50,034 nt of DNA from Actinomycetes bacterium (GTDB lineage: Bacteria > Actinomycetota > Acidimicrobiia > Acidimicrobiales > Ilumatobacteraceae). The number at the start of each line of letters is the position of its first letter. Positions within the stretch are counted from its first letter, which is position 1. The notes under the pieces were generated by a model, which searched no databases, had not been told where the DNA came from, and saw only the letters and a program-made list of their open reading frames with translations. Positions 1 to 13,718 of this stretch are shown here, piece by piece. Made by a program: the position numbers and the translations under genes. The stretch is taken from assembly GCA_014190235.1 (NCBI GenBank), contig BJGC01000016.1, positions 430 to 50,463 on the forward strand. Reading direction: 5' to 3'.

Positions 1-83
1 CGATCATGATAATTGCGAGTGTCGTCGCTGGCGTCGCAGGCTTATTGCTGCATCGCAAAAACGCGTCAATGATCAGGTCTTGA
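1..83 (+). CDS. C-terminal end of a membrane protein (partial)
   Basis: An open frame enters from the window edge and ends at TGA 81-83. The visible 26 residues are a hydrophobic helix (IMIIASVVAGVAGLLL) followed by a basic tail (HRKNASMIRS), typical of a C-terminal membrane anchor. The stop overlaps the stop of the convergent HPP gene by 11 bp, a normal arrangement for convergent genes here. The same end recurs at 3342-3440, where a few more upstream codons can be read. The family cannot be named from this fragment. Confidence 0.45.
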   Translation, partial: IMIIASVVAGVAGLLLHRKNASMIRS

Positions 84-618
84 CGGGATAACGTCGCCAG
101 GCAAATGGCGCATTAATAACGACAGCAAGCACCACGAGCAGGACCGCATTAAGTAGTACTGGTCGCCAGATGAATTTATATCCAAGATCAGTCACTGCCT
201 GGCCTCCAATAACAGCAGTAAGAGCCGTGCCGCCACTGGGCGGGTGCATGTATCCGAGCCGAACCATTGCCCCAGTGTGCACACCGACTGCAACAGCAAT
301 GGCAAGTGGAATATTGTTGAAAATTTGGGCTGACGCAACTCCCAAAAAAGCCCCCACAACGTGGGCGATAATCATGGGTACTGGTTGTGCAGCAGGTGCC
401 GTGGGCATTGTGAAGAGAATGACGGCGGAAGCACCCATTGACACCACTAGTAACGGCGCAGTCCCTCCAAGAAACGCGTCAGATAATAGCCACGTAATGG
501 CAATACCAAGTGCAGTACCTATTGCGCCGATGGAGGCATCTTTGTTGTTGCTTCTTGGGGATGGTAAAAGTTTGATGCGTGTCTTTCTTTTAGGTGCGGC
601 CAAAGTGTTTTGATTCAT
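73..618 (-). CDS. HPP family integral membrane protein (copy A)
   Basis: A 181-residue membrane protein with about four to five hydrophobic segments and the family motif HPPSGGTAL in the second half. HPP-family proteins are small membrane proteins; some bacterial and plastid members have been linked to nitrite or anion transport, but the substrate here cannot be told from sequence. A longer frame to 810 exists, but the added N-terminus lies inside the upstream AAA+ gene and is not membrane-like. ATG 618 is therefore preferred, giving a 29-bp overlap with the upstream gene and probable translational coupling to it. Downstream it meets the end of the convergent membrane-protein fragment. Confidence 0.8.
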   Translation of the reverse strand: MNQNTLAAPKRKTRIKLLPSPRSNNKDASIGAIGTALGIAITWLLSDAFLGGTAPLLVVSMGASAVILFTMPTAPAAQPVPMIIAHVVGAFLGVASAQIFNNIPLAIAVAVGVHTGAMVRLGYMHPPSGGTALTAVIGGQAVTDLGYKFIWRPVLLNAVLLVVLAVVINAPFAWRRYPVKT

Positions 619-1855
619 CGGTAAATTGCTTGGCAATCTGGGTCGTGATTGAAGCATTTGTTCCAGCAATTGACTTCGTAAGATCTTGTCGCGTGATATG
701 ACTTGGCTCAAAGCCATTGCGTGCACGATCAAAGGCGATGCTGGCCGCACGTTGCGAAGCGAGTTCAATGTCTCCTGGAGTAAAACCATCTGTGGCTTTG
801 ACCAACTCATCTATATCAATGTCTTGGGAATCTAAACGACTGAGAATGCTCGCCCACAGAGCTTTGCGAGCGATTTGATCTGGTGGACCAATTGGAATGA
901 CAAGGTCAAATCGGCCTGGTCGCAAAACGGCAGGATCAATGTTGCCAACGAAGTTCGTGGCACAGACGAGCAAATGACCAGCCGGTGTTCGGAACGATGG
1001 GATCATTTTAAGCAATTCATTCACCACACCGCGAGTGCCAGGGCTTTCTGAGCGAGCGGCCGCAATCTCATCTACTTCGTCGATAAATACAACAATGTTT
1101 TCAAGTTTGAGTAATTCGGTGAGAGCGTGACGAAGTTCAGCGGCAAGAGGCAATTGACCACTATCTAATTTGGATGGAAGCAATTCGACAAACGGCCAGC
1201 CCAGTCGCCCAGCAATGGCTCGAGCAAAAGTCGTTTTGCCTGTTCCGGGAGGGCCAAACAACATGACCGCTGATGGTGCGTTTACGCCAATTTTTCTCGC
1301 CAACTCTGGGTCAGCAAGAGGCGCAATTATTCGATTCTCAATCAAAGTTTTTTCAGTGTCCATGCCTGCAACTCGGTCCCACAATGTGGCATCGCAGAGT
1401 TCTCCGCCCCATTGATCAAGCACTCGCATTGCAGAGGGCTCAATGGGTTCAGATTTTTCGTAAAGCACAAGACCATGGATGGGATGAAAACCCCGATTAA
1501 CAAGAGCAGTTTGTCCCGCCTCAAAATTAGTGAGCAGTGCCGAAATTTTGCGAACTCCTTCGTGCAGCAATTTGTCTTCGAGGCGCTGCAACATTGCTGA
1601 GCCAATTCCTTGTTGCCGCCAACTAGGGCTAATGGCAACTATATTTATCCAGGCGTCATCATTGCTGATTCGACTAGACACTAAACCAACTACTTCGTTT
1701 CCGGCAACAGCGACAATTGCTGGCGAACCAGCGCTCGTATCGGCAACAAACTTTGCAATGTCAACTGGTCGTGAGTCTGCAACACCGCGACACAATTCAA
1801 GAAGACGCACCGCCGAAGACATATCACCGGGCACTAAATCGCGAACGTTGAACAT
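590..1855 (-). CDS. GNAT acetyltransferase-AAA+ ATPase fusion (copy A)
   Basis: A 421-residue two-domain protein. Residues 1-135 form a GNAT acetyltransferase domain with the acetyl-CoA loop RQQGIGSA (80-87). Residues 170-400 form a classical AAA+ module: Walker A GPPGTGKT (201-208), Walker B VVFIDE (255-260), sensor-1 ATN (299-301) and the second region of homology with arginines 312 and 315 (LRPGRFD). The ATPase resembles the FtsH/CDC48 type, but no protease domain or membrane segment is present. The combination suggests an ATP-driven remodeller that carries or controls an acetyltransferase; this is inference. The start is fixed by a -10 element six bases upstream. The gene overlaps the HPP gene downstream. 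Confidence 0.85.
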   Translation of the reverse strand: MFNVRDLVPGDMSSAVRLLELCRGVADSRPVDIAKFVADTSAGSPAIVAVAGNEVVGLVSSRISNDDAWINIVAISPSWRQQGIGSAMLQRLEDKLLHEGVRKISALLTNFEAGQTALVNRGFHPIHGLVLYEKSEPIEPSAMRVLDQWGGELCDATLWDRVAGMDTEKTLIENRIIAPLADPELARKIGVNAPSAVMLFGPPGTGKTTFARAIAGRLGWPFVELLPSKLDSGQLPLAAELRHALTELLKLENIVVFIDEVDEIAAARSESPGTRGVVNELLKMIPSFRTPAGHLLVCATNFVGNIDPAVLRPGRFDLVIPIGPPDQIARKALWASILSRLDSQDIDIDELVKATDGFTPGDIELASQRAASIAFDRARNGFEPSHITRQDLTKSIAGTNASITTQIAKQFTDESKHFGRT

Positions 1856-1861
1856 ACCCTC

Positions 1862-1867
1862 ATACTA
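1862..1867 (-). promoter_or_regulatory. -10 element of the GNAT-AAA+ gene (leaderless layout)
   Basis: TAGTAT on the minus strand, separated by exactly 6 nt from ATG 1855. This spacing would place the transcript start on the A of the ATG. The same element lies at 5219-5224 in copy B. Confidence 0.55.
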
Positions 1868-1903
1868 TGACAACTCTTAGTGATAGCCCGACAGTGTGCG
1901 CTA

Positions 1904-1923
1904 CAAAATATGCTCAATGAGCA
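1904..1923 (-). terminator. Weak candidate terminator after the SDR gene
   Basis: On the minus strand a short hairpin TGCTC-ATT-GAGCA is followed by TATTTTG, just after the SDR stop codon. The stem is only 5 bp, so this is weak. It is repeated at 5261-5280. Confidence 0.3.
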
Positions 1924-1933
1924 AAGCAAAGCG

Positions 1934-2602
1934 CTAACTAGTAAAGGCTTCAACTGGCAGATCACGCTCACCTGCAATTATGGCGCTGACGATGCGAGCA
2001 GCCACAGCATCGGGTGCCAGACCGACTGGCATCTTTGGTGCAACTCCAGCAACTGGACGCGTAGCAAGCCCAGTTTCGGTGTGCGGTGGTCGGGCATCAA
2101 TCACGTCAATTCGACGACGACGCAATTCACGCCCAACAGCCAACATCGCTGCCCAAGCAGCCGCTTTTGAGGCGCTGTATGCAGCCATGCCAGCGACAGG
2201 TTGTGTGGCAACAACACCAGAGAGGTTGACAAAAAAGCCTCCATCATTGATGTGCGTCGAGCTTTCGCGCAACATCACGATCGGGGCAATTGCATTTACT
2301 GCAAACAATTGATTGAGAGTTGCGTCATCTAAATCGGCAATTGCACCAAAGGCGACAAGCCCCGTTGCATTGATCACACCGTCAAACGGTGCGACAGACT
2401 CAAATGCAGTGCGCAGTGTTGCATGATTTGTGATGTCTGCCAAGGCGTACTGAAAAACAGTGGCACCATCAAGTCGCGTGTGGTCACGCACAATCGCCGA
2501 AACGCGCGCGCCAACAGTGGTGAGATGGGCGGCAAGACGAGCCCCCAACACACCAGTGGCTCCAACTACAACTATGTGTGTTCCAGTTAACTCTCGAGTC
2601 AT
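1934..2602 (-). CDS. Short-chain dehydrogenase/reductase (copy A)
   Basis: A 222-residue SDR oxidoreductase. Visible signatures are the cofactor loop GATGVLG (14-20), NATG (78-81), and a catalytic triad of Ser128, Tyr142 and Lys146 (YSASK). The protein is slightly short for a classical SDR (about 250), because the C-terminal substrate-binding part is trimmed. The substrate is unknown. A good Shine-Dalgarno (AAGGAG, about 8 nt before ATG 2602) supports the start. It follows the 77-residue gene after 44 bp, so the two are probably co-transcribed. Confidence 0.8.
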   Translation of the reverse strand: MTRELTGTHIVVVGATGVLGARLAAHLTTVGARVSAIVRDHTRLDGATVFQYALADITNHATLRTAFESVAPFDGVINATGLVAFGAIADLDDATLNQLFAVNAIAPIVMLRESSTHINDGGFFVNLSGVVATQPVAGMAAYSASKAAAWAAMLAVGRELRRRRIDVIDARPPHTETGLATRPVAGVAPKMPVGLAPDAVAARIVSAIIAGERDLPVEAFTS

Positions 2603-2646
2603 TGAATTTTGCTCCTTTTTAAAATCGGTAATTCATTCAAAAAGCG

Positions 2647-2880
2647 CTAGAGCGCTAGGTGACGCACAATTTTGGCAACAAATCTTTCAGGCGATTTTTC
2701 ACACGCTTTAATCTCGCTTGCACTCATCAGCAATGACACTTCACCAGAGGAATCTCGGATAACAACTGCGGGGTAATTGCCGTTTATGCAGTGGCGCACA
2801 CCGAGCCTGGCTCCAACCCAATAACTTATTTCGCCCCACAAGGTTGCATCAGCGTCATAAACACCAATTAGTTGCGACAT
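2647..2880 (-). CDS. Small conserved-looking protein, 77 aa (copy A)
   Basis: The function is not recognised. The N-terminal half (LIGVYDADATLWGEISYWVG, then LGVRHC) recalls a family of short uncharacterised actinobacterial proteins in which the motif is followed by a CxxC-like segment; here only one cysteine follows the histidine. There is no signal peptide or membrane segment. The frame is supported by a -10 element six bases before the ATG, and by an SDR gene following in the same direction. Confidence 0.55.
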   Translation of the reverse strand: MSQLIGVYDADATLWGEISYWVGARLGVRHCINGNYPAVVIRDSSGEVSLLMSASEIKACEKSPERFVAKIVRHLAL

Positions 2881-2886
2881 TCCTTA

Positions 2887-2892
2887 AAACTA
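2887..2892 (-). promoter_or_regulatory. -10 element of the 77-aa gene (leaderless layout)
   Basis: TAGTTT on the minus strand, 6 nt before ATG 2880. The intervening TAAGGA could also act as a very close Shine-Dalgarno if transcription starts further upstream. Repeated at 6244-6249. Confidence 0.45.
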
Positions 2893-2991
2893 CACTCAAA
2901 TAAAATTAGGTTGCCAAGTCTTGCGACCAGATACCGACCTGCAAAATAGTAACTGCTTAAGTTTATTGAACCGTGCATTGCGACGTGACAG

Positions 2992-3339
2992 TTATCGGCT
3001 ACCACGCAAATCGATATATAAAGTTTTTCGATTTTCGACGATGGGCCGCACATCAGTGGGTAGAGCAAGTTGTTCAGGTGCCAAAGTTCGTTTGTTGCAA
3101 TCAGTGAACTTGCGGGTGTTGGGAGTGTGCGTCACCAAGCACGATGCATCAGAGTCTGCAGGGTGGCCGTAATACACCTGCCATCCGCGTGTGGGATCAG
3201 CACCAGTGTGGTCAAGCACAATTGAACGGGTGCCGTTGGGGCTCTTGAGATCAGGGAACAAAAGTGGGCCACCGGTGTCAACAGCACGAGCAATCGACTC
3301 AACAGGGCCAACTTCAAAGATTCGGGCGCCCAAATTGGT
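2992..3339 (-). pseudogene. Truncated Rieske-like anchored protein (copy A)
   Basis: The C-terminal 116 residues of the protein encoded intact at 6349-6831. The N-terminal 44 residues, which hold the membrane helix, are lost at the join near 3339. The apparent ATG at 3342 is created by the junction: the full copy has Ile at that position. Against the intact copy there are about 27 base changes but only 4 amino-acid changes, so the two versions diverged while both were under selection as functional genes. That does not fit decay of a freshly truncated duplicate. Confidence 0.75.
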
Positions 3340-3345
3340 CATGGT
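3335..3345. other. Junction between tandem copies
   Basis: Up to about 3339 the sequence aligns with the Rieske-like gene of copy B (ending at 6696). From about 3340 it no longer does, and instead reads in frame (plus strand) into the C-terminal end of the membrane protein also seen at 1-83. The join therefore connects the interior of one gene to the interior of another. No target-site duplication or long microhomology is apparent. Confidence 0.6.
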
Positions 3346-3440
3346 TTGATCGATTCCCGATCATGATAATTGCGAGTGTCGTCGCTGGCGTCGCAGGCTT
3401 ATTGCTGCATCGCAAAAACGCGTCAATGATCAGGTCTTGA
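3342..3440 (+). CDS. C-terminal end of membrane protein, second copy (broken upstream)
   Basis: The same C-terminal helix and basic tail as at 1-83, preceded in frame by WFDRFP, which looks like natural juxtamembrane sequence. This suggests the native gene continued further left before the junction at about 3340. It has no start codon of its own in context. The stop overlaps the second HPP gene by 11 bp. Confidence 0.4.
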   Translation, partial: WFDRFPIMIIASVVAGVAGLLLHRKNASMIRS

Positions 3441-3975
3441 CGGGATAACGTCGCCAGGCAAATGGCGCATTAATAACGACAGCAAGCACCACGAGCAGGA
3501 CCGCATTAAGTAGTACTGGTCGCCAGATGAATTTATATCCAAGATCAGTCACTGCCTGGCCTCCAATAACAGCAGTAAGAGCCGTGCCGCCACTGGGCGG
3601 GTGCATGTATCCGAGCCGAACCATTGCCCCAGTGTGCACACCGACTGCAACAGCAATGGCAAGTGGAATATTGTTGAAAATTTGGGCTGACGCAACTCCC
3701 AAAAAAGCCCCCACAACGTGGGCGATAATCATGGGTACTGGTTGTGCAGCAGGTGCCGTGGGCATTGTGAAGAGAATGACGGCGGAAGCACCCATTGACA
3801 CCACTAGTAACGGCGCAGTCCCTCCAAGAAACGCGTCAGATAATAGCCACGTAATGGCAATACCAAGTGCAGTACCTATTGCGCCGATGGAGGCATCTTT
3901 GTTGTTGCTTCTTGGGGATGGTAAAAGTTTGATGCGTGTCTTTCTTTTAGGTGCGGCCAAAGTGTTTTGATTCAT
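3430..3975 (-). CDS. HPP family integral membrane protein (copy B)
   Basis: Reads as identical to 73-618: 181 residues, four to five membrane segments, motif HPPSGGTAL. ATG 3975 is preferred over the longer frame to 4167, which lies inside the AAA+ gene. Same 29-bp overlap with the upstream gene. Confidence 0.8.
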   Translation of the reverse strand: MNQNTLAAPKRKTRIKLLPSPRSNNKDASIGAIGTALGIAITWLLSDAFLGGTAPLLVVSMGASAVILFTMPTAPAAQPVPMIIAHVVGAFLGVASAQIFNNIPLAIAVAVGVHTGAMVRLGYMHPPSGGTALTAVIGGQAVTDLGYKFIWRPVLLNAVLLVVLAVVINAPFAWRRYPVKT

Positions 3976-5212
3976 CGGTAAATTGCTTGGCAATCTGGGT
4001 CGTGATTGAAGCATTTGTTCCAGCAATTGACTTCGTAAGATCTTGTCGCGTGATATGACTTGGCTCAAAGCCATTGCGTGCACGATCAAAGGCGATGCTG
4101 GCCGCACGTTGCGAAGCGAGTTCAATGTCTCCTGGAGTAAAACCATCTGTGGCTTTGACCAACTCATCTATATCAATGTCTTGGGAATCTAAACGACTGA
4201 GAATGCTCGCCCACAGAGCTTTGCGAGCGATTTGATCTGGTGGACCAATTGGAATGACAAGGTCAAATCGGCCTGGTCGCAAAACGGCAGGATCAATGTT
4301 GCCAACGAAGTTCGTGGCACAGACGAGCAAATGACCAGCCGGTGTTCGGAACGATGGGATCATTTTAAGCAATTCATTCACCACACCGCGAGTGCCAGGG
4401 CTTTCTGAGCGAGCGGCCGCAATCTCATCTACTTCGTCGATAAATACAACAATGTTTTCAAGTTTGAGTAATTCGGTGAGAGCGTGACGAAGTTCAGCGG
4501 CAAGAGGCAATTGACCACTATCTAATTTGGATGGAAGCAATTCGACAAACGGCCAGCCCAGTCGCCCAGCAATGGCTCGAGCAAAAGTCGTTTTGCCTGT
4601 TCCGGGAGGGCCAAACAACATGACCGCTGATGGTGCGTTTACGCCAATTTTTCTCGCCAACTCTGGGTCAGCAAGAGGCGCAATTATTCGATTCTCAATC
4701 AAAGTTTTTTCAGTGTCCATGCCTGCAACTCGGTCCCACAATGTGGCATCGCAGAGTTCTCCGCCCCATTGATCAAGCACTCGCATTGCAGAGGGCTCAA
4801 TGGGTTCAGATTTTTCGTAAAGCACAAGACCATGGATGGGATGAAAACCCCGATTAACAAGAGCAGTTTGTCCCGCCTCAAAATTAGTGAGCAGTGCCGA
4901 AATTTTGCGAACTCCTTCGTGCAGCAATTTGTCTTCGAGGCGCTGCAACATTGCTGAGCCAATTCCTTGTTGCCGCCAACTAGGGCTAATGGCAACTATA
5001 TTTATCCAGGCGTCATCATTGCTGATTCGACTAGACACTAAACCAACTACTTCGTTTCCGGCAACAGCGACAATTGCTGGCGAACCAGCGCTCGTATCGG
5101 CAACAAACTTTGCAATGTCAACTGGTCGTGAGTCTGCAACACCGCGACACAATTCAAGAAGACGCACCGCCGAAGACATATCACCGGGCACTAAATCGCG
5201 AACGTTGAACAT
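3947..5212 (-). CDS. GNAT acetyltransferase-AAA+ ATPase fusion (copy B)
   Basis: Reads as identical to 590-1855, with GNAT domain at residues 1-135 and AAA+ module at 170-400. The -10 TAGTAT lies at 5219-5224, 6 nt before the ATG. If the block is a genuine duplication, this ATPase and its partner genes are present at two copies per genome. Confidence 0.85.
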   Translation of the reverse strand: MFNVRDLVPGDMSSAVRLLELCRGVADSRPVDIAKFVADTSAGSPAIVAVAGNEVVGLVSSRISNDDAWINIVAISPSWRQQGIGSAMLQRLEDKLLHEGVRKISALLTNFEAGQTALVNRGFHPIHGLVLYEKSEPIEPSAMRVLDQWGGELCDATLWDRVAGMDTEKTLIENRIIAPLADPELARKIGVNAPSAVMLFGPPGTGKTTFARAIAGRLGWPFVELLPSKLDSGQLPLAAELRHALTELLKLENIVVFIDEVDEIAAARSESPGTRGVVNELLKMIPSFRTPAGHLLVCATNFVGNIDPAVLRPGRFDLVIPIGPPDQIARKALWASILSRLDSQDIDIDELVKATDGFTPGDIELASQRAASIAFDRARNGFEPSHITRQDLTKSIAGTNASITTQIAKQFTDESKHFGRT

Positions 5213-5290
5213 ACCCTCATACTATGACAACTCTTAGTGATAGCCCGACAGTGTGCGCTACAAAATATGCTCAATGAGCAAAGCAAAGCG

Positions 5291-5959
5291 CTAACTAGTA
5301 AAGGCTTCAACTGGCAGATCACGCTCACCTGCAATTATGGCGCTGACGATGCGAGCAGCCACAGCATCGGGTGCCAGACCGACTGGCATCTTTGGTGCAA
5401 CTCCAGCAACTGGACGCGTAGCAAGCCCAGTTTCGGTGTGCGGTGGTCGGGCATCAATCACGTCAATTCGACGACGACGCAATTCACGCCCAACAGCCAA
5501 CATCGCTGCCCAAGCAGCCGCTTTTGAGGCGCTGTATGCAGCCATGCCAGCGACAGGTTGTGTGGCAACAACACCAGAGAGGTTGACAAAAAAGCCTCCA
5601 TCATTGATGTGCGTCGAGCTTTCGCGCAACATCACGATCGGGGCAATTGCATTTACTGCAAACAATTGATTGAGAGTTGCGTCATCTAAATCGGCAATTG
5701 CACCAAAGGCGACAAGCCCCGTTGCATTGATCACACCGTCAAACGGTGCGACAGACTCAAATGCAGTGCGCAGTGTTGCATGATTTGTGATGTCTGCCAA
5801 GGCGTACTGAAAAACAGTGGCACCATCAAGTCGCGTGTGGTCACGCACAATCGCCGAAACGCGCGCGCCAACAGTGGTGAGATGGGCGGCAAGACGAGCC
5901 CCCAACACACCAGTGGCTCCAACTACAACTATGTGTGTTCCAGTTAACTCTCGAGTCAT
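5291..5959 (-). CDS. Short-chain dehydrogenase/reductase (copy B)
   Basis: Reads as identical to 1934-2602, with GATGVLG cofactor loop and Ser128/Tyr142/Lys146. Preceded by the same strong Shine-Dalgarno AAGGAG. Confidence 0.8.
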   Translation of the reverse strand: MTRELTGTHIVVVGATGVLGARLAAHLTTVGARVSAIVRDHTRLDGATVFQYALADITNHATLRTAFESVAPFDGVINATGLVAFGAIADLDDATLNQLFAVNAIAPIVMLRESSTHINDGGFFVNLSGVVATQPVAGMAAYSASKAAAWAAMLAVGRELRRRRIDVIDARPPHTETGLATRPVAGVAPKMPVGLAPDAVAARIVSAIIAGERDLPVEAFTS

Positions 5960-6003
5960 TGAATTTTGCTCCTTTTTAAAATCGGTAATTCATTCAAAAA
6001 GCG

Positions 6004-6237
6004 CTAGAGCGCTAGGTGACGCACAATTTTGGCAACAAATCTTTCAGGCGATTTTTCACACGCTTTAATCTCGCTTGCACTCATCAGCAATGACACTTCA
6101 CCAGAGGAATCTCGGATAACAACTGCGGGGTAATTGCCGTTTATGCAGTGGCGCACACCGAGCCTGGCTCCAACCCAATAACTTATTTCGCCCCACAAGG
6201 TTGCATCAGCGTCATAAACACCAATTAGTTGCGACAT
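6004..6237 (-). CDS. Small conserved-looking protein, 77 aa (copy B)
   Basis: Reads as identical to 2647-2880. The function is not recognised. The -10 TAGTTT lies at 6244-6249, six bases before the ATG. Confidence 0.55.
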   Translation of the reverse strand: MSQLIGVYDADATLWGEISYWVGARLGVRHCINGNYPAVVIRDSSGEVSLLMSASEIKACEKSPERFVAKIVRHLAL

Positions 6238-6348
6238 TCCTTAAAACTACACTCAAATAAAATTAGGTTGCCAAGTCTTGCGACCAGATACCGACCTGCA
6301 AAATAGTAACTGCTTAAGTTTATTGAACCGTGCATTGCGACGTGACAG

Positions 6349-6831
6349 TTATCGGCTACCACGCAAATCGATATATAAAGTTTTTCGATTTTCGACGATG
6401 GGCCGCACATCAGTGGGTAGCGCAAGTTGTTCAGGTGACAAAGTTCGTTTATTGCAATCAGTGAACTTCCGGGTGTTGGGAGTGTGCGTCACTAAGCAGG
6501 ATGCATCAGAGTCTGCAGGGTGGCCGTAATACACCTGCCATCCACGTGTGGGATCAGATCCAGTGTGGTCAAGCACAATTGAACGGGTGCCGTTGGGGCT
6601 CTTGAGGTCGGGGAACAAAAGCGGACCGCCTGCATCAACGGCGCGTGCAATCGACTCAACGGGGCCAACCTCAAAGATTTTTGCGCCCAAGTTGGTGATA
6701 TTGGATGGTCGTTGGGAGACGTAGCTGGCCATGCCCCAGGTGGCCGCCATCAATACGGCAAAGAACCCAATACCGAGCCCTACAGGCACAACGGCACGAG
6801 CCAAAGGGGACTTGAGTTGGGGAAGTTGCAC
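6349..6831 (-). CDS. Membrane-anchored extracytoplasmic protein, Rieske-like fold (intact)
   Basis: A 160-residue protein with one N-terminal membrane helix (about residues 12-37, VVPVGLGIGFFAVLMAATWG) and a roughly 120-residue domain predicted outside the membrane. The domain order (FEVGPVESI, WQVYYGHPAD, CLVTHTPNTRKFTDC) recalls Rieske-like subunits of actinobacteria, but the cluster-binding CxH pairs are absent, so no iron-sulfur cluster is expected. The two cysteines of the domain could form a disulfide. The fold assignment is tentative. It starts with GTG 6831 and is divergent from the mcmA2-like gene across 57 bp. It heads the minus-strand block. Confidence 0.6.
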   Translation of the reverse strand: MQLPQLKSPLARAVVPVGLGIGFFAVLMAATWGMASYVSQRPSNITNLGAKIFEVGPVESIARAVDAGGPLLFPDLKSPNGTRSIVLDHTGSDPTRGWQVYYGHPADSDASCLVTHTPNTRKFTDCNKRTLSPEQLALPTDVRPIVENRKTLYIDLRGSR

Positions 6832-6888
6832 ACCACTATTGTGGCGGGTTGGGACGACATTGCCATCACGGCGTAAGGTTTAACTTCT

Positions 6889-7293
6889 GTGAAGCGCCTC
6901 TACCGTGTCGTCGTTGCCAAGCCTGGGTTAGATGGCCATGATCGCGGGGCTAAGACAATCACTCGTGCCCTGCGTGACCATGGATTTGAGGTCATCTACA
7001 CAGGATTGCACCAGACTCCCGAGCAGATTGCCGAGACGGCCTTGCAAGAAGACGTTGATGTCGTGGGTCTGTCGTTGTTGTCGGGGGCACATTTGACGTT
7101 ATTTCCGCGCGTGATGGAAGAACTGCGAACTAGGGATCTTGGAGACATTTTAATTTTTGGTGGCGGCGTTATCCCGGATGCAGATGCGCGCGTATTGCAC
7201 GAACAAGGTGTTGCAAAGATTTTTGGTCCAGGGTCGTCTCTCAAAGACATCTGTATTTGGCTAGAAGAAGAACTCGACAACAGGGAGCAATAA
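6889..7293 (+). CDS. Cobalamin-binding subunit of an acyl-CoA mutase (methylmalonyl-CoA mutase small subunit type)
   Basis: A 134-residue stand-alone B12-binding domain. The lower-axial-ligand motif DGHDRG (15-20, His17) is intact, followed by SLLSGAHL and the glycine-rich FGGGVIPD. In this family the domain pairs with a separate large catalytic subunit, either methylmalonyl-CoA or isobutyryl-CoA mutase type, which is not in the window. Adjacency to sucCD favours methylmalonyl-CoA to succinyl-CoA. Start GTG 6889; a TAAGGT element ends 9 nt upstream, implying a leader of about 3 nt. The gene abuts sucC, whose GTG follows directly after this stop. Confidence 0.85.
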
Positions 7294-8442
7294 GTGGATC
7301 TATTTGAATACCAGGGCAAGCAATATTTTGCCCGCTATGACATACCAGTATCAGCAGGTGGGGTTGCCACCACTGTTGATGAAGCGGTTGCTGTTGCCAA
7401 CAAAACTGGCTATCCCGTTGTTGTTAAAGCACAAGTACAAGTTGGCGGCCGAGGCAAAGCAGGCGGTATCAAGTTGGCCAATGATGAAGCCGAAGTACGC
7501 ACACACGCCGGAAACATTTTGGGCATGGATATCAAGGGCCATGTCGTCAAGCGCATTTGGGTTGAAAATGCCTCTGACATCAAAGAGGAGTACTACGCGT
7601 CGTTCACATTAGATCGCGCAGCCAAGCAACATCTTTTGATGCTCAGTGTTGAAGGCGGGGTTGAGATCGAAGTAGTTGCGGCCAAAAACCCTGATGCAAT
7701 CATTAAGTTGCATATCAATCCGGTTGATGGCTTGTCGCTAACAGCAGCAAAGAAAGCAGTTGTCGATGCCAAGATTCCAGCACAAGCCCAAGCAGGGGTG
7801 GCAGAGATGTTGATTAAGTTGTATCGCTGCTTTACAGAGGGTGATTGCGATTTAGCCGAAATTAATCCGCTTATCTTGAAGCCAAACGGCCAAATACATG
7901 CTCTCGATGCCAAGGTTAGTTTGGACGAGAACGCAGAGTTTCGTCATCCAGAGTGGGCTGAATTTATGGCCACAATTGAGCTAGACGCACGCGAAAAACT
8001 CGCCCGTGAATATGGGCTGCAGTACATCGGTCTTGACGGCACGGTTGGCATTATTGCTAACGGTGCAGGCTTGGCAATGAGCACGCTTGACGTGGTCAAT
8101 CAAGTCGGCGGATCCGCAGCGAACTTCCTTGACATTGGTGGTGGCGCAAATGCCGATCTGATGGCGCATGCGCTTGAAGTAATTAACTCGGACAAAAATG
8201 TGAAGAGTATTTTCATCAACATCTTTGGTGGCATTACGCGCGGTGAAGAAGTTGCCAAAGGAATTGTTGAAGCGATGTCTCGCGTTGACTTACGAGCGCC
8301 AATTGTGATTCGACTTGACGGAACAAACGCCCAAGAAGGCAGAGACATCTTGGCTAATGCTGGTATTCCTGCATCAAAGTTGACAAGTAAACCCACCATG
8401 TTGGATGCTGCACGCGCGGCTGTCGAACTTGCTCAGAAATAG
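7294..8442 (+). CDS. sucC: Succinyl-CoA synthetase, beta subunit
   Basis: A 382-residue ADP/GDP-forming succinyl-CoA ligase beta subunit at the usual length. N-terminal ATP-grasp signature LFEYQGKQYFARYDIPV, then VVKAQVQVGGRGKAGG (nucleotide-binding lysine and glycine loop), and NIFGGITRGEEVAKGIVEA in the C-terminal CoA-ligase domain. It forms the catalytic complex with SucD, next gene, and makes succinate and NTP from succinyl-CoA in the TCA cycle. Start GTG 7294 with Shine-Dalgarno AGGGAG inside the end of the upstream gene. Likely operon mcmA2-sucC-sucD-purH. Confidence 0.97.
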   Translation: MDLFEYQGKQYFARYDIPVSAGGVATTVDEAVAVANKTGYPVVVKAQVQVGGRGKAGGIKLANDEAEVRTHAGNILGMDIKGHVVKRIWVENASDIKEEYYASFTLDRAAKQHLLMLSVEGGVEIEVVAAKNPDAIIKLHINPVDGLSLTAAKKAVVDAKIPAQAQAGVAEMLIKLYRCFTEGDCDLAEINPLILKPNGQIHALDAKVSLDENAEFRHPEWAEFMATIELDAREKLAREYGLQYIGLDGTVGIIANGAGLAMSTLDVVNQVGGSAANFLDIGGGANADLMAHALEVINSDKNVKSIFINIFGGITRGEEVAKGIVEAMSRVDLRAPIVIRLDGTNAQEGRDILANAGIPASKLTSKPTMLDAARAAVELAQK

Positions 8443-8451
8443 GAAACAGTT

Positions 8452-9351
8452 ATGGCAATTTTTGTAGATCACAACACCAAGGTCATTGTGCAAGGACTCA
8501 CTGGCGGACAAGGAAAATATCACGGCTTGCGCAACAAGGCGTACGGAACCCAAGTAGTTGCAGGCGTGACTCCTGGCAAAGGTGGTCAAGATGTCGAGGG
8601 TATTCCCGTGTATGACACGGTGGCTCAAGCAGTGCAGGCAACGGGAGCGACGGCATCATTTGTGACTGTGCCCCCAAAGGCCGCACCTGCTGCAATTTTG
8701 GAGGCTGCTGCCGCGGGTGTCACATTTATTGTGTGTATTACAGAAGGTATTCCGGCCCAGGATGAGGCACGCACCTACAACACGTTGGTTCGCGACTACC
8801 CCAATGTTCGATTACTCGGACCAAATTGCCCCGGCATTATCAGCCCCGGAAAATGCAATATCGGAATCACTGCTGGAGAAATTGCTCAGTTACCAACTGC
8901 CAAGGGACCAAATGTTGGAATCGTTTCGCGATCCGGAACGCTGACATATCAGGCGTTGTACGAACTGAAGCAACTCGGAATTGGCGTGAGCACGTGCGTC
9001 GGTATCGGCGGAGATCCAGTTCCGGGAACATCTTTTATCGATTGCTTGCGCGAGTTTCAAAACGATCCAGAGACTCACGCAATCATCATGATCGGTGAGA
9101 TTGGCGGATCAGCCGAAGAAGAAGCAGCAGACTTCATTACAGCACATGTCACTAAGCCGATGTCTGCGTACATTGCCGGCGTCACTGCACCTGCCGGAAA
9201 AAAGATGGGTCACGCTGGCGCCATCGTGTCAGGCGGTAAAGGAACAGCACAAGGCAAAATGGATGCGTTGCGCGCAGCAGGAGTGCGCGTTGGGCTCAAC
9301 CCAACCGAGGCTGGAGCATTGATGGCTGACATTGTGAAAGAACTCGCCTAA
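8452..9351 (+). CDS. sucD: Succinyl-CoA synthetase, alpha subunit
   Basis: A 299-residue alpha subunit. CoA-binding Rossmann part starts with VQGLTGGQGKYHG; the phosphohistidine region is GHAGAIVSGGKGTAQGK. Shine-Dalgarno AGGAAA lies before ATG 8452, 9 bp after sucC. Its stop is immediately followed by the purH ATG, with no spacer. Confidence 0.97.
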   Translation: MAIFVDHNTKVIVQGLTGGQGKYHGLRNKAYGTQVVAGVTPGKGGQDVEGIPVYDTVAQAVQATGATASFVTVPPKAAPAAILEAAAAGVTFIVCITEGIPAQDEARTYNTLVRDYPNVRLLGPNCPGIISPGKCNIGITAGEIAQLPTAKGPNVGIVSRSGTLTYQALYELKQLGIGVSTCVGIGGDPVPGTSFIDCLREFQNDPETHAIIMIGEIGGSAEEEAADFITAHVTKPMSAYIAGVTAPAGKKMGHAGAIVSGGKGTAQGKMDALRAAGVRVGLNPTEAGALMADIVKELA

Positions 9352-10860
9352 ATGCCACGCGCATTGCTGTCGGTCTACGACAAGAACGGCATCGTTGAGT
9401 TTGCTGAGGCGCTACACGAACTTGGATGGGAACTGCTGTCAAGTGGTGGCACGGCCAAAGTAATCGCAGATAATGGCATCCCAGTGATTGATGTTGCAGA
9501 GATCACCGGTCTTGGTCCAATTCTTGATCATCGTGTTGTCACATTGCATCCAAAGATTCATGGTGGCTTACTGGCTGATATTGCTAATCCTGCTCACGTT
9601 GCCGAGATGTTGCAATACGGAATCGAGCCGATTTCATTGGTAGTGGTGAACCTGTATCCGTTCACGACCAACCCAAGTATTGAGTTGATTGATATTGGTG
9701 GACCAGCCATGGTTCGGGCAGCCGCTAAAAATCATGCCCATGTCGGCGTCATTGTCGATGTCAGCGACTACGACGGAGTTCTTGACTTGATTCGACACGA
9801 TGATTTTGACGTTGTTGCTCGACGACAGTTGGCTGCAAAAGCATTTCGCATTACGAGTGCGTATGACGCTGCAGTGGCCGCTTGGATGGGCAGTGACATT
9901 GAGAGCAGTATTGATGCCACGCTTCCGCCCGTACTCACAGTTGTTGGAGAACGAGATGAAATTTTGCGATACGGAGAAAATCCACACCAGGTAGGGGCAC
10001 GATACAGATTGCCTGGTCTCAGAAGTTGGTGGGATTCTGCTCTGCAACTGAACGGCAAAGAAATGAGCTACCTCAATGTCTTTGACACCGAAGCAGCGTG
10101 GCAACTTGTTAATAAGTTTGATGCACCTGCCGCCGTTATTGTCAAGCACGCCAATGCGTGTGGCGTTGCAACGGGGGAATCAATTGATGATGCCTATCGC
10201 GCAGCACATGCTGCCGACCCGATCAGTGCTTTTGGCGGAATCATTGCTCTCAACCGCGCAGTCACAGACGATACGGCACGGGCAATCGCCGAGATTTTTA
10301 CGGAAGTTGTGGTGGCGCCTGGGTTTAGTGCAGGGGCACTAGAAATTTTGTGTGCAAAACCATCACTGCGACTGCTTGAGGCAACGGCGCCATTCAATGA
10401 AAATGCATTGCAGGTGCGCAGTATTGACGGTGGCCTGTTGGTGCAAACAACAGACGAAGTGGATGAACCACTCGATCTGTACACGGTTGCCACTGATCGC
10501 ACACCGACTGATACAGAATGGACTGACTTGTTGTTGGCGTGGCAAGTTGCTGCAGCAACATGGAGCAACGCCATTGTGTTGGTCAAAAATGGAATTGCGA
10601 TTGGCATTGGCGGGGGACAACCCAATCGAGTTGACGCTGCTCGGATTGCCATTGGTCGTGCCGCCAATAATGTGGTGGGTTCGGTGGCTGCTAGCGACGC
10701 GTTTTTCCCGTTTCGCGACACCATTGATGAACTGGCCAAGGCGGGCGTAACGGCAATTATTCAGCCGGGCGGAAGTGTTCGCGATGCAGAGTCAATTGCG
10801 GCAGCGAACGAACATGGGCTGGCCATGGTGGTTACCGGAGTTCGTCACTTTCGCCATTAA
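9352..10860 (+). CDS. purH: Bifunctional AICAR formyltransferase/IMP cyclohydrolase
   Basis: A 502-residue enzyme for the last two steps of IMP synthesis, within the family's usual 500-530. The N-terminal cyclohydrolase (MGS-like) domain shows SSGGTAK and HRVVTLHPKIHGG. The formyltransferase domain has LRYGENPHQ and the catalytic KHANACGVA, with Ala where many homologues have Pro. The formyl donor is 10-formyl-tetrahydrofolate, which links it to metF downstream. It begins directly after the sucD stop without a clear Shine-Dalgarno, so it is probably translationally coupled. The actinobacterial partner purN is not adjacent here. Confidence 0.96.
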   Translation: MPRALLSVYDKNGIVEFAEALHELGWELLSSGGTAKVIADNGIPVIDVAEITGLGPILDHRVVTLHPKIHGGLLADIANPAHVAEMLQYGIEPISLVVVNLYPFTTNPSIELIDIGGPAMVRAAAKNHAHVGVIVDVSDYDGVLDLIRHDDFDVVARRQLAAKAFRITSAYDAAVAAWMGSDIESSIDATLPPVLTVVGERDEILRYGENPHQVGARYRLPGLRSWWDSALQLNGKEMSYLNVFDTEAAWQLVNKFDAPAAVIVKHANACGVATGESIDDAYRAAHAADPISAFGGIIALNRAVTDDTARAIAEIFTEVVVAPGFSAGALEILCAKPSLRLLEATAPFNENALQVRSIDGGLLVQTTDEVDEPLDLYTVATDRTPTDTEWTDLLLAWQVAAATWSNAIVLVKNGIAIGIGGGQPNRVDAARIAIGRAANNVVGSVAASDAFFPFRDTIDELAKAGVTAIIQPGGSVRDAESIAAANEHGLAMVVTGVRHFRH

Positions 10861-10861
10861 C

Positions 10862-10889
10862 GATGCGCCTCATCTTCGCCGAGCGCATC
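10862..10889 (+). terminator. Candidate hairpin after purH
   Basis: GATGCGC(C)TC pairs with GAGCGCATC (9 bp with one bulge) around a 9-nt loop, directly after the purH stop. There is no T-run behind it, so it may be a weak terminator or an mRNA 3' end. It ends four bases before the metF -10 element. Confidence 0.35.
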
Positions 10890-10892
10890 TAA

Positions 10893-10898
10893 TAGAAT
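10893..10898 (+). promoter_or_regulatory. -10 element of metF (leaderless layout)
   Basis: TAGAAT ends exactly 6 nt before GTG 10905, which predicts a transcript starting at the G of the start codon. Confidence 0.6.
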
Positions 10899-10904
10899 GA
10901 ACCC

Positions 10905-11765
10905 GTGACACGGATTAGCGCTCTTTTACAAGCAGGACGTACGTTCTCGTTTGAGTTTTTCCCTCCCAAAAATGATGAGGCTCAGGTCGCGTTGACGCGA
11001 GCGATTATCGAACTCGAACCGTTGGCCCCCAGTTTTGTCAGCGTTACCTACGGGGCGGGCGGCTCGACACGCGAACGCACTCGAGATCTAGTGGTACAGA
11101 TGCGGCGCGAGACAAAGATTCCGCCAATGGCTCATCTCACATGTGTGGGGCACACGCGTGCAGAGATACAAGACATCATCGGGGCCTATGTCGAGGCAGG
11201 AGTAGAGAACGTTTTGGCGCTTGCAGGTGATTTGCCAGCAGACGGGACTGATATTCCGCCAAGTGATTATGTCTATGCCACAGATCTCGTTGAGCATCTG
11301 CGCAGTATCACCGACATGTGCATTGGTGTTGCCGCTCATCCAGAAGGGCATCCCCGATCACTCGATCGAGCGACAGATCGTCGTCATATGGCTGCAAAAT
11401 TGCAGATGGCCGATTTTGCCACGACTCAATTTTTCTTTGAGGTCGAGCACTACGTTCGATTAGTCAATGAACTTGCCGATCTTGGTTGCACGAAGCCCGT
11501 CATCCCCGGAATCATGCCCGTGACCAACTTGTCCCAAGTGCAAAGAATGGCCGCAATGTCTGGAACAGAGTTCCCGTCGTGGTTGCACGATGAATTGGCG
11601 TCGATGAGAACACCTGAAGATGTTCGTCGCGCCGGAGTCGATGCTGCTACTCGGCTCTGTGCAGAACTGCTTGAGGCCAATGCACCAGGATTGCATTTTT
11701 ATACGATGAACCGCTCGACTGCTACTCGAGAAATTTACGCTGAACTTGGACTTCCCGTCACGTAA
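10905..11765 (+). CDS. metF: 5,10-Methylenetetrahydrofolate reductase
   Basis: A 286-residue FAD enzyme that reduces methylene-THF to methyl-THF for methionine synthesis. TIM-barrel signatures in order: FEFFPPKN (strand 1, catalytic Glu), SVTYGAGGSTRERT, HLTCVGHTRAEI, LALAGDLP, and TQFFFEVEHYVRLV. Normal bacterial length. Start GTG 10905 is supported by the -10 element. The following acyltransferase starts 6 bp after the stop and may be co-transcribed. Confidence 0.95.
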   Translation: MTRISALLQAGRTFSFEFFPPKNDEAQVALTRAIIELEPLAPSFVSVTYGAGGSTRERTRDLVVQMRRETKIPPMAHLTCVGHTRAEIQDIIGAYVEAGVENVLALAGDLPADGTDIPPSDYVYATDLVEHLRSITDMCIGVAAHPEGHPRSLDRATDRRHMAAKLQMADFATTQFFFEVEHYVRLVNELADLGCTKPVIPGIMPVTNLSQVQRMAAMSGTEFPSWLHDELASMRTPEDVRRAGVDAATRLCAELLEANAPGLHFYTMNRSTATREIYAELGLPVT

Positions 11766-11771
11766 TCAAAG

Positions 11772-13718
11772 ATGAATCAAAACGCGACATACGAAAACGG
11801 AACCCCAGCATGGGGCGCGCGGCGTGGTCCGGTGATGCCCTACATCCCGGCCGTTGATGGCTTGCGGGCGTTGTCTGTGATTGCCGTCATTGTGTATCAC
11901 GCCAATAAGAGTTGGCTCGGCGGTGGATTCTTAGGTGTCGAAGTATTTTTTGTTATTTCGGGATACTTGATCACACTGCTATTGCTCGCTGAAAGAGAAA
12001 GAACCGGCACAGTAACACTGCGTAATTTCTGGATGCGCAGAGCACGACGTTTACTGCCCGCGTTATGGACGCTCCTGTTGTCGATCACGATCTGGTGTGC
12101 ATTTTTTGATCGCGAGCGGTTGGGAATGCTGCGTGGAGATGTTGTTGGGGCATTTATATATATGTCGAACTGGTTCAACATCTGGTCTGGTTCGTCATAC
12201 ACATCGTCTTTTTCGTTTGCACCGTTACGCCATTTATGGTCACTAGCCGTCGAAGAGCAGTACTACTTGCTGTGGCCAATCGTGATGTTTGTTGTGCTCA
12301 AACGTATGAGACAACGCCTATTGCCTTTCATTGGCTTATTTTTTGTAGCAATTGCAGTTGCCATCGCCGTGGTGACGGCAGTGATGTATCAAACAGGGCC
12401 GATCGATACCTTTGCTAAAACTCCTCACCAGTTCATGTCGTTATTTGGACATCGCGTCTTACGCATTGACTTTCTCTACTTGGGTACTTTTAGCAGAGCA
12501 ACTGGATTATTTCTGGGCTCCGGACTTGCAATGATGTGGCGACCTTGGGCGCTCGCACGCGGCAAGGTAATTCGCACTGGTAGAGCCTTAGATCTTCTCG
12601 GTGTGGGAGCAATCGCAGCACTTGGCTACATGGCCTGGAGTTTTCGCACAGTCGTCGAAGGCGTTGATGTCGGACAGCAAGGCTATGACTTGCTATATCG
12701 TGGCGGATTTTTTCTTGTTGGCCTCGCATCTATTATCGTGATTGCCGCCGTCACGCACCCACGCTCAGAACTGGGTCGATGGGTGATCGGTAACCCACTG
12801 TTTGTGTGGGTAGGAGTTCGAAGTTACGGACTGTATTTATACCATTGGCCGATTTTTCAGATCTATCGAAAAAGTGCAGGGACGCCACTGACCGTCGAAC
12901 AATTTGGGTGGCTAATGCTGGCGTCATTGATTGTGACGGAGTTGTCGTATCAATGTATTGAAATGCCGATACGTCGCGGAAAACTCATGCCGTATTATCG
13001 CAACTTGCGGGCATCTATCAGCGACAGTCAGGCAATGGTACGTCGCCGAGCCGGCACTGCAGTTTTAGTGGTATCACTCTTGCCGATTTTTGCGGTGGGC
13101 GCTCTCGTGACTGCCGACGTCGTGCCCGACGAGATCACACAGAACCTAAACGACAACGAAGACGCCGTGACCAACGTAATGGCTAGTACAACAACATCAG
13201 CAACAACCTTGGCGGTGGCCACATCAACACCGGCGACTCTTGCACCAGTCAAACGAATTGATGTGCTTGCAATTGGCGATTCAGTGATGCTGGGCGCCGC
13301 ACGTAAACTCAAAGCCAAAGGCATCACCGTTGACGCCGAAAAAAATCGGCAGTTCAACGAGTCACTCCAAATATTTGGGTATCTCAAAGCAACCAGAGAA
13401 CTTGGAGACAACGTAGTCATCCATCTCGGGACAAATAACGGCACAACAAAGCAAACTCTTGACCGAATTATGAAGGCATTGGTCGATGTGAAACTCGTGG
13501 TCTTTCTCACGACGCATGTCCCCACAAGAGGTTGGCAGCAAGAGACCAACTCACTCATCGCAGCACTTCCAAAGCAGTATCCGAATGTCAAAGTCGTGTA
13601 TTGGAATGCCATCACCAAGGATCATCCTGAGTATTTTGCGGGTGACAGGGTGCATCTCAAGCCCGCTGGTCAAGACTTCTATGTGGAGCAGATCATGGCC
13701 GCATTAGGCCGTTCCTAG
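11772..13718 (+). CDS. Acyltransferase-3/SGNH two-domain membrane protein (OafA-like)
   Basis: A 648-residue protein. The N-terminal 380 or so residues form a polytopic acyltransferase-3 domain that starts with the typical YIPAVDGLRALSVIAVIVYH (catalytic His in VYHA), includes FFVISGYLIT and has about ten membrane helices. A Thr/Ala-rich linker (around residues 465-490) leads to an extracytoplasmic SGNH domain with IGDSVMLG (block I Ser), HLGTNNG and DRVHL (catalytic Asp/His). Such proteins O-acylate cell-surface polysaccharides or peptidoglycan; the acceptor here is unknown. It sits between metF and mdh without obvious functional link. Confidence 0.9.
   Translation: MNQNATYENGTPAWGARRGPVMPYIPAVDGLRALSVIAVIVYHANKSWLGGGFLGVEVFFVISGYLITLLLLAERERTGTVTLRNFWMRRARRLLPALWTLLLSITIWCAFFDRERLGMLRGDVVGAFIYMSNWFNIWSGSSYTSSFSFAPLRHLWSLAVEEQYYLLWPIVMFVVLKRMRQRLLPFIGLFFVAIAVAIAVVTAVMYQTGPIDTFAKTPHQFMSLFGHRVLRIDFLYLGTFSRATGLFLGSGLAMMWRPWALARGKVIRTGRALDLLGVGAIAALGYMAWSFRTVVEGVDVGQQGYDLLYRGGFFLVGLASIIVIAAVTHPRSELGRWVIGNPLFVWVGVRSYGLYLYHWPIFQIYRKSAGTPLTVEQFGWLMLASLIVTELSYQCIEMPIRRGKLMPYYRNLRASISDSQAMVRRRAGTAVLVVSLLPIFAVGALVTADVVPDEITQNLNDNEDAVTNVMASTTTSATTLAVATSTPATLAPVKRIDVLAIGDSVMLGAARKLKAKGITVDAEKNRQFNESLQIFGYLKATRELGDNVVIHLGTNNGTTKQTLDRIMKALVDVKLVVFLTTHVPTRGWQQETNSLIAALPKQYPNVKVVYWNAITKDHPEYFAGDRVHLKPAGQDFYVEQIMAALGRS

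Follow-up and report, generated by a model that had tools for sequence, protein, structure and literature searches.

Doubled blocks of bacterial DNA have close counterparts both in cells and in assembly graphs. Short-homology tandem duplication is the RecA-independent kind, and in a de Bruijn graph adjoining edges share one vertex of k bases. The locus treated here is a head-to-tail block at the end of scaffold BJGC01000016.1 (C16) of an Ilumatobacteraceae genome (GCA_014190235.1), studied in a window of 50,034 nucleotides (bases 430-50463 of C16). The genome, of 2,020,665 bases in 55 contigs and an estimated 96.18% completeness, was evidently binned from a metagenome, to judge by the titles of related loci given below. 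Allele A denotes the 3' part of a gene for a 160-amino-acid (aa) protein that stands in the first copy, and allele B the full-length gene downstream. The block is read here as two haplotypes joined through a collapsed graph edge, most likely one stretch of DNA written twice, and a probability of about 0.75 is assigned to this reading.

According to PMC8021871, metaSPAdes collapses most differences between strains by projecting bulges onto a consensus. In homology-facilitated illegitimate recombination, as set out in the part of PMC3240628 used here, a foreign tract would end exactly at a short-match joint. The present locus is like a strain-collapsed loop of a k=127 assembly of SPAdes or metaSPAdes type (the program being presumed) in that contig tips overlap by k, the identical stretch is one edge, two branches stand at either end and an N gap lies beside the vertex; unlike a plain loop of that kind, it calls for a head-to-tail joint, real or chimeric, as well. 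It shares with short-homology tandem duplication the head-to-tail joint, a 6-base match and the lack of long flanking repeats, and departs from it in that the two sides would come from different haplotypes on the best reading and the copy number is unproven. Merodiploids formed by transformation or homology-facilitated illegitimate recombination likewise have a divergent tract that ends at a short-match joint with identical DNA beyond. Here, in contrast, a single molecule is unproven, most polarised changes are on the intact copy and a single-nucleotide polymorphism (SNP) lies on the supposed recipient side.

The doubled block and its divergent end

Self-comparison of the window at an offset of 3357 gave no mismatch between 1-3063 and 3358-6420. 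The copies first disagree at 3064, and beyond about 3342 they are no longer similar. Between these points the alleles differ at 26 of 276 bases (3064-3339 against 6421-6696), or at 27 bases when the comparison runs to 3342. The codon differences are 20 silent and four amino-acid changes, plus codon 1 at the joint, which is ATG against ATC. The divergence is uneven, with 17 of 90 bases differing beside the joint against 9 of 186 in the 3' part. Chance is excluded, and the assembled sequence does contain the abrupt switch. The first-pass annotation of this DNA had reported five doubled genes with about 3063 identical base pairs followed by sudden divergence, and both observations are borne out. 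The five are the HPP-family, GNAT-AAA fusion and SDR genes, a 77-aa open reading frame (ORF) and the 3' part of the 160-aa gene. Its description of the divergence as mostly silent also holds, with its count of about 27 in 276 corrected to 26 and the spread found to be uneven.

The same annotation let a tandem block begin simply at the start of the window. The tandem block stands and the simple start does not. C16 begins with a 329-base piece followed by 100 N and then by window base 1, so that 429 bases precede the window. The last 127 bases before the gap (C16:203-329) are exactly identical to window 1-127 and to window 3358-3484; thus this sequence is present a third time, in the piece upstream of the gap. 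The base preceding the 127-base overlap differs, being T at C16:202 and C at window 3357, and the 20 bases further upstream match again.

A k=127 signature in the assembly

The outer 1.5 kb of every contig end was compared across the 55 contigs, except for three contigs whose six ends read as N, so that 104 ends remained. The outer 127-mer was found in another end for 46 of the 104 and exactly at another tip for 45, and no end (0/104) shared 128 bases with another. All 22 tip-to-tip overlaps found when lengths of 20-399 bases were tested are exactly 127 bases long. One tip (C10R) shares 124 bases with the interior of another end, a dispersed repeat. These overlaps are the signature of a de Bruijn assembly with k=127, made by an assembler which we take to be SPAdes. 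The last 127 bases of C15 are the first 127 bases of C16. Overlaps of this kind would also order neighbouring contigs, for example C15 before C16 and C16 before C25.

A k=127 graph was built on one strand from two inputs and the edges were compared. One input combined a haplotype holding the locus once (left flank, then segment, then allele B) with a single 548-base fragment that bears allele A and the joint; the other followed the scaffold and contained the tandem duplication. Both gave the same set of edges. One edge is exactly window 1-3063, equal to 3358-6420, and runs between two branching vertices, the left of which lies at the N gap. The copies are then identical because one edge was written twice, and the identity says nothing on when or whether a duplication occurred; the switch falls at 3064 because the graph branches there.

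Under the favoured explanation, the 3063-base edge would have two entries, from the left flank (C16:1-329) or from the 548-base edge with allele A and the joint, and two exits, into allele B and the remaining chromosome or into the same 548-base edge. The assembler would have written the edge, the loop and the edge again, making the "copies" identical by construction. The resident haplotype most likely holds the locus once, running from C15 through the left flank and the segment into allele B, the mutase-domain gene and sucCD. A second haplotype in the sample is the most likely source of allele A and the joint; there the segment would have been tandemly duplicated or excised as a circle via GGTCAT, and the differences of this haplotype within the segment may be either absent or projected onto the consensus. 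Of all this, the graph signature, the edge boundaries, the synteny and the six-base match are shown directly, and the presence of two haplotypes and the assignment of the joint to one of them are deduced. Most likely, then, assembly produced the feature, and an ordinary rearrangement in a strain present in the same sample triggered it.

The nearest relative compared (G031, whose contig matches SXUP01000016.1) holds the segment once, between a flank matching C16:1-150 and a cluster of mutase-domain gene, sucC, sucD and purH. The copy-number comparison with related genomes that had been proposed earlier therefore gives a single copy in this relative. Identity between G031 and the segment locus is 82-86% over the longer matches, and collinearity with G031, at about 79% identity, extends over the end of C15 as far as the left flank.

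Of the early proposals, an assembly path that joined two strains by way of a common 3-kb segment has the best support, and it is incomplete in one respect. A shared segment cannot by itself give a head-to-tail block. Such a block needs DNA that runs from allele A into the left flank, so a real duplication, a circle or a chimeric joint is also required. Another early proposal, that old duplicates were homogenised by gene conversion up to 3063, is superfluous, the identity boundary coinciding with the graph branch.

The joint and the competing explanations

Allele A runs to an ATG (3340-3342) that is also present in the relative, and is followed by left-flank sequence. The six bases GGTCAT are common to the left flank, the joint and the right breakpoint in the relative. 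Seen through the relative, allele A's own right breakpoint would have read GGTCAT as well. Since GGTCAT stands in the left flank and in the relative's gene and allele B reads GGTGAT, short-homology joining in an allele-A background is the probable origin of the joint, whether it made a head-to-tail duplication or a circle. Matches of at least 6 bases were obtained in 0.17% of random joints in this region.

Behind the joint, 1 of 15 bases (3343-3357) differs from C16:188-202, and the following 3063 bases are identical. For a lone mutation to fall within those 15 bases in one duplicated chromosome the chance is, by our arithmetic, about 15/3078 (~0.005), and a difference at 3357 is unremarkable between haplotypes 5-9% apart. 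This private SNP is the main ground on which we infer two haplotypes rather than one.

Several points weigh against two haplotypes joined at an edge. A true tandem duplication yields the same graph, so the graph alone cannot separate the two readings; the reading is drawn from assembled sequence, with which two real copies are compatible. That SPAdes writes 100 N at an unresolved loop is our assumption, and the one other N run examined has no k-base overlap and may be a mask. The k-base overlap would stand even if the 100 N masked real sequence instead of marking a gap. No difference occurs within the 127 bases beside the joint, for which the chance is 0.002 at 4.8% divergence; therefore assembler collapse or recombination must be added to the two-haplotype reading. 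The lone change beside the joint could have been left by error-prone joining. Allele A was found in no other contig of the assembly, all four matches to window 3000-3400 being in C16.

The first competing explanation, considered unlikely, takes the scaffold as a faithful chromosome with a recent tandem duplication made with DNA of another strain, by homology-facilitated illegitimate recombination or a variant of it. The foreign DNA would have paired with the segment at one end and been joined illegitimately via GGTCAT to the left flank, leaving a 276-base foreign tract at the joint and duplicated recipient DNA that is identical. The divergent tract does abut the joint, the joint carries the 6-base match and the changes are mostly silent. 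A 3,276-base duplication without flanking repeats, arising by transformation, is also described for one pneumococcal clone in the available text of PMC3784515. Yet a private SNP behind the joint is unexpected in one chromosome: the recipient side should be identical to the recipient chromosome and 1 of 15 bases differs, which a joining error could excuse. Moreover, the block is terminal in the scaffold and adjoins a gap that shows the k-mer overlap; there, a collapsed edge written twice is identical by construction.

The direction of change bears on the same explanation. Of the 26 differing sites, 16 carry the relative's base in allele A, two in allele B and eight in neither (16 against 2 polarised sites, p = 0.0013). 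Polarised in this way, most changes are on the intact copy, allele B. Divergence of the truncated allele elsewhere, which the first-pass annotation had held to be necessary, finds no support in this polarity, 16 of the 18 polarised changes lying on the intact downstream copy. A foreign tract anchored by homology at one end fits the pattern, yet this polarity weakens the simplest reading of allele A as a foreign donor's. It fits the variant of a plain duplication followed by import of allele B over the intact gene through ordinary recombination. That the scaffold is literally true, an uncultured actinobacterial cell having newly duplicated the segment in tandem, with 276 bases of another strain marking the joint, is rather improbable. 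Pseudogene decay of the truncated copy, considered separately, is opposed by the 20 silent against four amino-acid codons and by allele A being nearer to the relative.

It is very unlikely that two fragments of another haplotype were fused into a chimeric molecule while the library was prepared or amplified, in which case no cell would have the joint. The 6-base match also suits template switching and private differences occur on both sides of the joint; against this, a complete 548-base path stands in the k=127 assembly, which would normally need several overlapping reads.

A 3357-base circle, the excised segment with allele A beside a single-copy chromosome, would give the same joint as a tandem duplication but is hardly probable, since no phage match was found, three plasmid records match only 98 bases inside the GNAT-AAA gene, and the four larger proteins of the block matched no replication, integrase or transposase family at curated cut-offs. 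The same matches led to rejection of a mobile element, phage or plasmid origin of the segment. The search for replication, integration or transposition genes covered the four larger proteins, among which the AAA protein gave sub-cut-off matches to the RuvB and replication factor C models. An exact 24-base pattern of the joint had no match in viral contigs, which is weak evidence, the collection being viral. No known RNA was found at the block borders in window 1-12000 (Rfam, gathering scores) and no tRNA in the window (ARAGORN). Tandem Repeats Finder gave five rows of 8-9-base units, none relevant.

Gene content, relatives and meaning

Features of the block (window coordinates)
Feature	Position	Strand	Basis or remark
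Graph vertex, 127 bases	1-127		Identical to C16:203-329 and window 3358-3484
Shared segment, first writing; one 3063-base edge of the k=127 graph	1-3063		0 mismatches; edge recovered by simulation
HPP-family membrane protein ORF	73-810	-	Family search, ORF list
GNAT acetyltransferase-AAA ATPase fusion	590-1855	-	Family search
SDR-family oxidoreductase	1934-2602	-	Family search
77-aa ORF	2647-2880 (second copy 6004-6237)	-	Comparison with G031
Allele A, gene for the 160-aa protein truncated at the joint to 116 aa	2992-3342	-	N-terminal hydrophobic stretch (by eye) missing
Divergent tract	3064-3339		26/276 bases differ from 6421-6696
Six-base match GGTCAT at the joint	3337-3342		Common to C16:182-187 and the relative's 160-aa gene
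Left-flank sequence behind the joint	3343-3357		Base 3357 C, C16:202 T
Shared segment, same edge written a second time	3358-6420		Self-comparison, graph simulation
Allele B, full-length 160-aa gene	6349-6831	-	Adjoins methylmalonyl-CoA mutase C-terminal (B12-binding) domain gene, as in relatives

The ORF at 73-810 probably starts further in, since the corresponding HPP-family protein of G031 has 167 aa. An in-frame segment of 46 internal residues, present in the 123-aa counterpart in G031, is missing from the 77-aa ORF, through gain or loss in one lineage. The first part of the 77-aa ORF (window 2787-2880) also has a 74% match over 94 bases near the end of contig C6, perhaps a paralogue. The 160-aa protein has no Pfam or NCBIfam match and shows an N-terminal hydrophobic stretch by eye; it is an unnamed conserved family.

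The 160-aa protein was compared across 28 loci, two of them on the same contig. Its gene adjoins the methylmalonyl-CoA mutase C-domain gene in all 28, and sucC comes next in 27, the remaining one being a short locus. The related loci in named genomes are all (9/9) titled as metagenome-assembled genomes, eight actinobacterial (two of Ilumatobacteraceae) and one of Acidobacteria. The HPP, AAA and SDR genes stand beside the 160-aa gene only in G031 among the 28 loci, their absence being informative for eight loci with at least 3 kb beyond the gene (L027 excepted) and not for 18 short ones. When 61 genomes, the source genome included, were searched with window 2400-3484, 26 matched, and only G031 besides the source genome matched at both ends. 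Just upstream of the window, about 1.47 kb of the relative (L026 3943-5415) is absent at the left flank of this genome (C16:150-196). It holds two ORFs of the relative, one for a 181-aa fasciclin-like lipoprotein (by eye, not by family search) and one for a 275-aa protein.

A tandem block that is perfect and then 10% silently divergent can arise from a single graph edge written twice, and the perfect identity seen here does not show that a duplication is recent or was homogenised. A quick test is offered by an exact k-base overlap just outside the block together with the same k at the contig tips. Surveys of metagenome bins that count duplications, allele exchange or gene conversion would otherwise take such a block for striking biology. 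If the scaffold were faithful, the block would record DNA uptake from strain to strain making a duplication in nature; if true, it would be a natural footprint of transformation-driven merodiploid formation in a wild population.

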